A stretch of DNA of 64,000 nucleotides from NCBI RefSeq assembly GCF_003337275.1, contig NZ_QPJQ01000001.1:62001-126000 (forward strand), written 5' to 3'. Origin of the DNA: Marinomonas foliarum. GTDB taxonomy: Bacteria > Pseudomonadota > Gammaproteobacteria > Pseudomonadales > Marinomonadaceae. The notes beneath the pieces are model-generated. The model was given only the letters and a program-made list of their open reading frames with translations. It ran no database searches and was not told the DNA's origin. The translations under genes were made by a program, and so were the position numbers. This document shows, one piece after another, positions 24,584 through 28,111 of the stretch (position 1 is its first letter; every line of letters starts with the position of its first letter).

Positions 24584-25723
24584 TCACAATTCAACATTAT
24601 TGTCATGAAGTACAAGTTTATTACGACCTTGTTTTTTAGCTAGATAAAGAGCCTGATCGGCATGTTGGTAGATTTGACTAAAGGTAGTTTGTCTATCTCC
24701 TTCATGGTAATAAAGGCCTGTGCTGAGCGTGGTGTGGATCAAGGCACTGTTGTTCACCTTGATCTTGGTTTGCTCCACTGTTTGACGAATTTTCTCACAA
24801 ATGTCGATTACTTCATTTTGAGTCTTCTCTAAGAACAGTATGCAGAACTCTTCTCCACCAAGACGAGCGACAAAATTAGGCGAGGAAATCGAATGCTCTA
24901 GTATATCAGCAATCATTTTAAGCACTTCATCGCCAGCTGGGTGACCATATAGATCATTTATTTTCTTGAAGAAATCTAAATCAATAATAGCAAAACCAAT
25001 CTGTTGCGGCCGATTCAGTAAAACAGCTTGTGTTTTTTCTGTAATGAAACGTCGATTAGGCAATTGAGTTAAATGGTCTCGATTATTTTGTATGGTAAGG
25101 AATTCCTTATGCCAATAAAGACGAGTCAATACTAACAAAAGAGCTGAGACAACCAGCAATATTGTAGCAATCAACCCCCAAATTAAATACGTGAGTTCAT
25201 TCTTTAGACGACGCTCTATGTTAGAAGCCGATTGAATTACATTGTGTAGACCTGTGTAGGAAAGTGCCAAGTCCAACTCTAGTTGGGTAAGCTGTTTAAC
25301 GAGCATTTTTTTGGCATTTTTGTTTTGCTCGAATGCTCTAATATCTTGTTGAGACGTCTCCAAAGCAAGCTTCGTCTCATTTAGCTGATTTATATATTCA
25401 ACATAAACAAAGTCTTCGGCTGTACTATCACTCATTTTTCTATCAATTAGAGGAATACGATACTGGAGTCTTAGTATTATTTTTTTCAATTCTTTGATAT
25501 CAAAAAATGGGCTGTCTTCCTTTAAGTAGTCCAAAGACCGCTTTAGCAAATGAACATCCTCTTGGGCTTGAGTAATGTCAATTGCCAGCGCCGTAAAATT
25601 TGAACCAAGCAACTGCCTAGACTGCTGTTGAAAATAAAATACGGACCAAACACACAAGCTTAGAAATACGGCGAAAATCAGCCAGATTCTAATTTTGATT
25701 TGCTTTGCACTGGTTTTAATCAT
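24584..25723 (-). CDS. membrane diguanylate cyclase coupled to a periplasmic partner
   Basis: A 379-aa inner-membrane GGDEF protein. A transmembrane segment at about 11-30 leads to a helical periplasmic domain of about 145 residues, then a second membrane segment (about 178-202) and the GGDEF domain. The active site is ARLGGEEF (GGEEF at 289-293) with the upstream DLDFFKKINDLYGHPAGD. No RxxD inhibitory site precedes it, so product inhibition is not expected. Its start overlaps the stop of the sulfite-oxidase-fold gene by ATGA, so the two products are probably made together and may form one signalling unit. Confidence 0.9.
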   Translation of the reverse strand: MIKTSAKQIKIRIWLIFAVFLSLCVWSVFYFQQQSRQLLGSNFTALAIDITQAQEDVHLLKRSLDYLKEDSPFFDIKELKKIILRLQYRIPLIDRKMSDSTAEDFVYVEYINQLNETKLALETSQQDIRAFEQNKNAKKMLVKQLTQLELDLALSYTGLHNVIQSASNIERRLKNELTYLIWGLIATILLVVSALLLVLTRLYWHKEFLTIQNNRDHLTQLPNRRFITEKTQAVLLNRPQQIGFAIIDLDFFKKINDLYGHPAGDEVLKMIADILEHSISSPNFVARLGGEEFCILFLEKTQNEVIDICEKIRQTVEQTKIKVNNSALIHTTLSTGLYYHEGDRQTTFSQIYQHADQALYLAKKQGRNKLVLHDNNVEL

Positions 25724-26277
25724 TGAGACAAGATTTCATTGAGAGCCCAAACCCAGTAGTTTTTACTTTCAGAAAGGTGTGAAGCAAGGCCAGCATCAGC
25801 AGGGATAATTAACAGTAAAGGCCCTAGATTTTCAGCACTAATAGGTTGGCGATTTAAGCGGGTAGCTATCAGATAACGCTTTCTCTCTATACTTTCTTTT
25901 GGAATAAATACTTCATATCCATCAATAGCAATAAAGCGCAGTCTTGGCGAATCGTTAAGGCCATACTTTATTAATAAATCATCCAGCCATATACCACTAA
26001 AACGCCCTTGAGGACCATCAAAATGCACCATGTCTTCGGTATCAAACAGAGGAAGAGATTCTATTTCCGCCATAGATATTGAAACTTCTTGGCCGGATAC
26101 TCCCAAAGTGAGTACTGCAGATGTATCAGAAGATGGTAAAAGGTCACTAGGATAAACGTCTACGGCGTATGCAGTGGCATTGAGAAGCGAAGAGATTGCC
26201 ATCAGCAAAATTAACTTAACTAGGTATGATTTGACGGCTTTTATTTTGAATAAGGAACAACTCAAAAAAATTTTCAT
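25720..26277 (-). CDS. secreted molybdopterin-oxidoreductase-fold (SUOX-like) protein
   Basis: A 185-aa protein with an N-terminal signal peptide (LILLMAISSLLNATAYA, cleavage before VDVYP). The mature part resembles the oxidoreductase molybdopterin-binding domain of sulfite-oxidase-like proteins: LTLGVSGQEVSISMAEIESLP, GRFSGIWLDDLLIKYG, IDGYEVFIPKESI and the terminal YWVWALNEI. The mature protein has no cysteine, so the usual cysteine ligand to molybdenum is missing and catalysis is unlikely. It precedes and overlaps a membrane diguanylate cyclase. The likely role is periplasmic ligand sensing for that enzyme; this is inference. Confidence 0.75.
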   Translation of the reverse strand: MKIFLSCSLFKIKAVKSYLVKLILLMAISSLLNATAYAVDVYPSDLLPSSDTSAVLTLGVSGQEVSISMAEIESLPLFDTEDMVHFDGPQGRFSGIWLDDLLIKYGLNDSPRLRFIAIDGYEVFIPKESIERKRYLIATRLNRQPISAENLGPLLLIIPADAGLASHLSESKNYWVWALNEILSQ

Positions 26278-26431: not shown

Positions 26432-28111
26432 TTAACTAGTAATCGCGCTCAAAACAACCCTATTTCGTCCTTGTTCTTTAGCGTCATAAAGCGCGGCATC
26501 TGCACGATTCAGCACCTGCTCATAGTGTGAATCATCAGCGAGGTAGATAGCCACACCAAAACTAGCCGAGACAAATAAACCATCACTCATCTCTTCTTTT
26601 TCAAGAGCCGAGCGAAGAGTCTCAGCAATAATTTCAGCCTCCTCGACAAGGAAATTAGGTAATAGAACCGTAAACTCTTCACCACCAAATCGAGCAACCA
26701 TGCCCTTACTCCCGACCAGACGGGAAAATAGGACAGCCATTTTTTTGAGTACGGTATCGCCAACCGTGTGACCATATACATCATTTACTTTTTTAAAATA
26801 ATCGACATCGGCCATAATCACAGCGAACGGCCGCTGCGATTGTTTCGCTAAATTATATTCATCAAGCAAAGCCTCATCTAAAGCCAAGCGATTATAACTT
26901 TGAGTTAATGGATCTTGTCGCACAATCACTTCTAGTGACCGATTGCTGGCTTCCAGTTCGGCCGTTCGAGTGCGTACTTTTGTTTCTAACGTGAGATTCA
27001 TTTGCATTAAAGACTGTTCTCGCACCAATAAAGAAGACATCATTTTTTCTAATGAACAACTCAGGCTCGCAACTTCGCTCAATTTACTATCATCTTGGAA
27101 AGTCGCATTACGATTTCCTTGCTGAATACTTTGAGCTGTGAGCGCCAACCTTTCAAGAGGGCGACTTAAAGTACTCGCAAATTGGTAAGCCAAGAACATA
27201 CAAAACAAAGTGGCAAGCCCACCAAACAAAATCAATAATTTATGCACTTCATTGACGGTTGCCATAGCAATAGACAGCGGCTGACGCACGACAATTTGCC
27301 AACCAAGCTTCGTTGAATCTAGAAAACCCACAGAAACCAAGCTGGTTAAATAAGCCTCTTCATCTTGCCACACCAGCGATTTGAATTGACCATTCTTAGG
27401 CAATTCCTTTGGTACAGCAATATCACCTTGCGCACTACCACTTGGATATAAAACATTCCTATCTCTATCAATGATAAAGACATCAATTTTTTTTCGTTTC
27501 GATGCCTCAGTTAATGAAGAGGAAATAATATCCCTTACCCAAGTCCAATCCGCATGTATTCCAACAACTCCCTTAAACTCACCATTTTCACCGGTTACAG
27601 GAGCCGCAAAGTCAACTAAGCGAATAGGAATCCCATCCTTCGGCTTAGGCAGAAGACTTTCAAGCAAGAGTGCTGGGTGAACATCGCCAACAAAAGGAGC
27701 GGTTCGAGCATTAATAAACCAAGGTCGCTGACTCACATCCGCCCCCTTTAACAACCCATTACCTGACGCTAATACCAACCCATCGGGATTAGCAAAACCT
27801 ATCCATGCGTAGTCTTTATAGGAGCTTTTGATTCGATCTATTACGTCTTGCAAATCACTTAGATCTTGATTTTCATATAAAAAAGTACGCTTACTAAGCA
27901 GAATAACTTCCCGCTTACGCTCAGCAATATTGGCGGTTAACATATTTGAAATGGATTGGCTGATGCCGACGAGAGATTCCCCACTCGCGTGCGAAAGACG
28001 AGTTGAGGTGAGCTGGTAAAAAGAAGCAATAAGCACCAAGCTTAAAGAAAGAAGCAAACCACCAGATAACAAAGTGATTCGCTTTCGAAAAGTGTCAAAG
28101 CCTCTTAACAT
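26432..28111 (-). CDS. dCache-HAMP diguanylate cyclase
   Basis: A 559-aa membrane sensor enzyme. A transmembrane segment at about 10-33 is followed by a large periplasmic dCache domain (DYAWIGFANPDGLVLASG; DVSQRPWFINAR; GVVGIHADWTWVRDII), a second membrane segment at about 290-312, a HAMP domain (STLSRPLERLALTAQSI), a coiled coil (TLETKVRTRTAELEASNRSL) and a GGDEF domain with ARFGGEEF (476-480). No RxxD inhibitory site is present. It should make c-di-GMP in response to an external small molecule such as an amino or organic acid. Single gene. Confidence 0.92.
   Translation of the reverse strand: MLRGFDTFRKRITLLSGGLLLSLSLVLIASFYQLTSTRLSHASGESLVGISQSISNMLTANIAERKREVILLSKRTFLYENQDLSDLQDVIDRIKSSYKDYAWIGFANPDGLVLASGNGLLKGADVSQRPWFINARTAPFVGDVHPALLLESLLPKPKDGIPIRLVDFAAPVTGENGEFKGVVGIHADWTWVRDIISSSLTEASKRKKIDVFIIDRDRNVLYPSGSAQGDIAVPKELPKNGQFKSLVWQDEEAYLTSLVSVGFLDSTKLGWQIVVRQPLSIAMATVNEVHKLLILFGGLATLFCMFLAYQFASTLSRPLERLALTAQSIQQGNRNATFQDDSKLSEVASLSCSLEKMMSSLLVREQSLMQMNLTLETKVRTRTAELEASNRSLEVIVRQDPLTQSYNRLALDEALLDEYNLAKQSQRPFAVIMADVDYFKKVNDVYGHTVGDTVLKKMAVLFSRLVGSKGMVARFGGEEFTVLLPNFLVEEAEIIAETLRSALEKEEMSDGLFVSASFGVAIYLADDSHYEQVLNRADAALYDAKEQGRNRVVLSAITS

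Follow-up and report, generated by a model that had tools for sequence, protein, structure and literature searches.

Periplasmic binding proteins that report to a membrane signalling enzyme are known from the NspS-MbaA and TorT-TorS systems, whose binding-protein folds and ligands are unrelated to those of PruR pairs. The closest described system to the gene pair analysed here is PruR-DcpA of Agrobacterium tumefaciens. According to a review (PMC13259868, citing Greenwich et al. 2024 PNAS and Feirer et al. 2015 mBio), reduced pterins whose synthesis involves PruA are the ligands of PruR, which interacts with the periplasmic portion of DcpA and shifts this GGDEF-EAL enzyme towards breakdown of the biofilm signal c-di-GMP. 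The pruR gene is located directly upstream of dcpA and both genes are transcriptionally coupled (PMC13259868). Pairs of the PruR-DcpA type are widespread in Proteobacteria, from which over 5500 unique sequences have been reported (PMC13259868). The outputs of PruR partners are either c-di-GMP enzymes or histidine kinases, and the vast majority of the receptor domains carry a WX7E motif (PMC13259868). Pterin binding involves Tyr104 (or Phe) and W160 in the A. tumefaciens numbering, and Asn102 is replaced by Asp in two described PruR groups, which has been related to a possible difference in specificity (PMC13259868). The route from pterins to c-di-GMP has been established in a single organism, whose receptor is a dual-function enzyme.

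We analysed a stretch of 64,000 nucleotides of the Marinomonas foliarum genome (hereafter the window; contig NZ_QPJQ01000001.1, positions 62,001 to 126,000). On its minus strand, a pruR-like gene encoding a protein of 185 aa (25720..26277) is followed by the gene of a diguanylate cyclase of 379 aa (24584..25723), and both genes are intact. Stop and start codons share four bases (25720-25723), which read TCAT on the plus strand and ATGA on the minus strand. This overlap, noted in the original prediction and borne out by the sequence, was the same in most relatives of the pair, and translational coupling across it is likely. As in A. tumefaciens, pruR is located directly upstream of the gene for a membrane-bound c-di-GMP enzyme that has a periplasmic domain. 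The statement that no characterised example of such a pair existed fails, because PruR-DcpA has been described in A. tumefaciens; crystal structures of PruR from four species also exist. In our reading, the pair consists of a pterin sensor of the PruR type and the DcpA-like receptor to which it is coupled, a receptor with cyclase output only, and we give this reading a probability of about 0.78. A second diguanylate cyclase gene (dCache_1, HAMP and GGDEF domains; 26432-28111, minus strand) lies directly upstream of the pair, at a distance of 154 bases and in the same direction. It was considered as a part of the system and dropped, as the Marinomonas orthologues have other genes upstream of pruR. 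When the region was scanned for promoters and terminators, the hits did not exceed those in shuffled sequences.

The identity of the small protein was examined by phmmer/hmmsearch, structure prediction, structural alignment and conservation in 31 family members. The protein starts with a hydrophobic N-terminal helix that, read by eye, corresponds to a signal peptide (about residues 1-38, with the cleavage site between AYA and VD), and both its secretion signal and its size agree with those of PruR proteins, which are near 170 aa. Its only cysteine, C7, is inside the signal peptide, leaving the mature protein cysteine-free as predicted, a feature shared by 29 of the 31 aligned family members. 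With respect to the molybdopterin-oxidoreductase-like domain that had been assigned to it, the sulfite-oxidase fold was recovered in the predicted structure, while the Pfam label itself is weak, since the match to PF00174 (Oxidored_molyb) reached 20.6 bits, under the 24-bit cut-off. A single-sequence search against all PDB chains retrieved four matches only (7RKB, 7KP2, 7KOM and 7KOS; E 5e-5 to 8e-3), all of them titled PruR by their depositors. When an 11-row family profile was used against the PDB, the PruR entries improved to values between 7e-12 and 4e-9, against 0.18 for the best-placed true sulfite oxidase. The AlphaFold model (31 family sequences, mean pLDDT 87) gave PruR structures as top Foldseek matches (E 6e-9 to 3e-6), corresponding to proteins of Vibrio cholerae, V. 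vulnificus, Agrobacterium fabrum and Klebsiella pneumoniae. Alignment of these structures to the model with VIA-align produced Z scores of 16.1-16.5 and rmsd values of 2.4-2.7 over 130-134 residues, compared with Z scores of about 7-13 (best 12.7) for molybdenum enzymes. From these sequence and model comparisons we concluded that the small protein is a PruR, like those of V. cholerae (7KP2) and V. vulnificus (VV2_1280, 7KOM), with a predicted sulfite-oxidase-type fold that is closest to the solved PruRs, ahead of molybdenum sulfite oxidases. It resembles A. tumefaciens PruR (Atu3496; PDB 7KOS, 7KOU) in being secreted, in lacking the molybdenum-ligating cysteine and in having Trp and Tyr in the pocket, but differs from it in having Asp at the Asn102 position and an extra Trp, both proteins being 18-19% identical in the structural alignment. 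By analogy with Agrobacterium, the proposal that a catalytic fold without this cysteine has been reused as the periplasmic ligand-binding partner of a membrane c-di-GMP enzyme appears to be correct.

The partner gene had been predicted to encode a membrane diguanylate cyclase with a periplasmic helical domain, in agreement with the results of Pfam, the predicted model and Foldseek. The protein contains a transmembrane helix at about residues 12-33, a periplasmic helical domain of ∼140 residues at about 35-178 (segment 25190..25621, minus strand), a second transmembrane helix at about 179-203 and one GGDEF domain at residues 214-369 (PF00990, E 1.7e-42) with an intact GGEEF motif. Foldseek matched the model (pLDDT 91) to DgcB, SiaD, WspR and other cyclases. 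Unlike DcpA, which is a GGDEF-EAL protein with the WX7E motif, the output of the window's cyclase is GGDEF alone, without EAL, and the WX7E motif was found in the periplasmic domain of none of the 43 cyclases of this branch. The I-site RxxD, which mediates product inhibition, is absent from the window's cyclase; it is kept in nearly all Halomonas-type cyclases and lost in the Marinomonas ones. A G[SA][ND][YF]TA motif is conserved near the start of the periplasmic domain, at residues 40-45. PDB sequence searches with this domain returned nothing significant. When the periplasmic domain of the branch was compared by hhalign with the WX7E domains of PruR-linked kinases, a score of 58.0 over 220 columns was obtained at 9% identity in the profile alignment, the controls giving 22.7 (reversed) and a mean of 19.2 with a maximum of 30.1 (local shuffles). 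The domain is thus remotely homologous to WX7E domains of the DcpA/DTB type. A PruR together with a homologous periplasmic domain is also found in the PruR-DTB histidine kinases (Ruegeria pomeroyi type), whose output, unlike that of the window's pair, is a phosphorelay and not c-di-GMP.

Co-occurrence of the two genes across genomes, proposed originally as a test of the pair, was confirmed. While a single-sequence scan of genome contigs detected nothing, a profile scan provided the loci. The PruR profile alone identified 39 loci in named genomes, belonging to Marinomonas, Halomonas, Billgrantia, Vreelandella, Ectothiorhodospiraceae, Arhodomonas and Aquisalimonas. In all 39, a homologous GGDEF-only cyclase gene adjoined pruR in the same place and in the order pruR then cyclase, as in a two-gene operon. 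The pairs that were not clean showed a premature stop codon within the GGDEF domain (L046), a frameshift (L051), about 1.3 kb of inserted DNA (L052) or contig ends (L054 and L056). In locus L034, on a contig equal in length to that of L052, a transposase-like gene was present between the pruR and cyclase genes. Searching with the periplasmic domain alone recovered 8 of 48 Marinomonas genomes plus three from other genera in the order, and pruR was present at all eight Marinomonas loci and at the three other-genus loci. As the genome encodes 41 GGDEF domains, adjacency by chance would be expected at about one in a hundred, and the pairing of pruR with the cyclase is far beyond chance. Distances between PruRs correlated with those between periplasmic domains (37 pairs, r 0.76; partial correlation 0.46 with the GGDEF domain controlled for; Mantel p 0.001). 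Such a correlation is expected if the two partners are passed on as a pair, although shared ancestry also contributes to it.

Conservation of the pocket was analysed in the 31 family members. Y121, at the position of A. tumefaciens Y104, and W177, at the position of W160 and in place of the molybdenum-ligating cysteine, were invariant (31/31 each). D119, which corresponds to A. tumefaciens N102 and represents the Asp form of the PruR family, was Asp in 31 of 31 members, and the extra Trp, W175, located two residues before the pocket Trp (WxW), was invariant in the family. Neither the Asp at the N102 position nor the second Trp is present in any of the four crystallised PruRs. By analogy with the described PruRs, the ligand is likely a small pterin rather than the molybdenum cofactor, a sulfur compound or an aromatic; given the pocket Asp and the second Trp, it may differ from that of Agrobacterium PruR.

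The genome was also inspected for a supply of pterins. folE and folM are located side by side on contig 1 of the same genome (42835-44314), ∼18 kb outside the window. FolM is 50% identical to E. coli FolM and contains the TGX3RXG and YX3K motifs, FolE was named by eye from its sequence, and two FolB/FolX-family proteins are encoded in the genome. With FolE and FolM encoded, a source of tetrahydropterins is present and they are probably made. A pterin-dependent aromatic hydroxylase was looked for in the genome and not found, so that there is no evident enzyme using the tetrahydropterin made by FolM. Tetrahydropterin without an evident consuming enzyme fits, without proving it, a use in signalling.

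How far these residues and enzymes define the ligand bears on the alternative that survives best, namely that the PruR fold has been kept for another ligand, which could be a non-pterin or a pterin that differs in its side chain or its oxidation state. Pairing and mechanism would then hold and the chemistry would differ. Both the invariant Asp, at a position linked to possible specificity in some PruR groups (PMC13259868), and the invariant W175 of the WxW, two features that set the family apart from the four crystallised PruRs, argue for this alternative, but the pocket Tyr and Trp are kept and FolM is encoded, with tetrahydropterins probably made, and we consider it rather unlikely. Still less probable is an envelope redox sensor in which the pterin bound to PruR is a redox cofactor and its oxidation, not its arrival, switches the cyclase: pterins are redox-active and this property has been stressed as a likely facet of their signalling, but there is no evidence that they react chemically with PruR (PMC13259868). 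Finally, that the protein is a molybdenum oxidoreductase, degenerate or atypical, that carries a working cofactor and lies beside the cyclase by accident, is suggested by the Pfam name of the sub-threshold match and is very improbable, since the mature protein has no cysteine to act as ligand, PruR structures match it better than any molybdenum enzyme, the pairing recurs at every one of the 39 loci and a separate PF00174 family member, well over the cut-off, is encoded on contig 40 of the genome.

The proposed pair of sensor and receptor would operate as follows, with pterin binding, direct contact and the effect on activity all modelled on the Agrobacterium system. PruR would be exported to the periplasm, where it would bind a small, probably reduced, pterin in the truncated sulfite-oxidase-fold pocket, with Trp replacing the molybdenum-ligating cysteine. 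Its docking site on the membrane cyclase would be the periplasmic helical domain, and docking would shift the transmembrane helices and change GGDEF activity, leading to a change in c-di-GMP levels and attachment. Because the receptor has no EAL domain, the complex could tune only synthesis, and pterin-loaded PruR might turn the cyclase either on or off. With a receptor limited to cyclase activity, the action of PruR would be simpler to read out, and the control of c-di-GMP by pterins, by analogy, would likely extend to marine and halophilic gammaproteobacteria.

The place of the pair within the PruR family was assessed in a phylum-wide survey of PruR loci, weighted to the window's own branch and including near-copies, in which a WX7E partner accompanied none of the 59 PruRs with WxW and Asp and a readable partner, compared with 52 of the 76 PruRs with Asn and without the second Trp. 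The partners of those 59 PruRs were short GGDEF proteins in 56 cases, a GGDEF-EAL protein in one (L247), a kinase in one (L224) and unclassified in one. Short GGDEF partners with WX7E exist elsewhere (L208, L239 and others), and cyclase-only partners are not unique to the branch. At L208, L215, L232, L237, L239 and L241, for instance, PruR is beside a short cyclase-only regulator as it is in the window, but WX7E is retained in these partners, and their PruRs, which have Asn and lack the second Trp, fall apart from the window's branch on the tree. The window's PruR falls in a group with 37 further proteins of its type (SH-aLRT 96), the crystallised PruRs being placed elsewhere. Taken together, the pair is a member of a coherent, divergent, cyclase-only PruR-DcpA branch in Marinomonas, Halomonadaceae and Ectothiorhodospiraceae, and the kind of system is one already known. 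A branch without WX7E suggests that this motif is not essential for the pairing of PruR with its receptor. We also considered that a Trp had moved from the receptor (in WX7E) to PruR (W175). The association is strong, but WxW changes only about four times on the PruR tree, leaving too few independent pairs for a test, and WxW and WX7E are both present in L162, L189 and L206, and we do not claim such a move. Given so few origins of the trait, we make no claim of repeated co-evolution. The branch may be functionally distinct, with a different pterin or another ligand, a different PruR-receptor interface (Asp, WxW, no WX7E) and a cyclase without phosphodiesterase, a possibility that we put forward tentatively and with some doubt.

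Several other PruR loci were observed in the survey. PruR-like proteins at L217, L226 and L229 adjoin GGDEF-EAL-type proteins without WX7E, and their periplasmic domains are not clearly related to the one in the window's branch. The genome from which the window was taken carries a PruR-histidine kinase pair on contig 8 (L256) and a third PruR on contig 29 (L257), whose WX7E partner, of only 215 aa, ends close to the end of the contig and seems to be truncated. Marinomonas also has two additional types of PruR with a short cyclase lacking WX7E (L009-L012, and L262 and L263), giving at least three lineages of this kind in the genus in addition to the kinase type.
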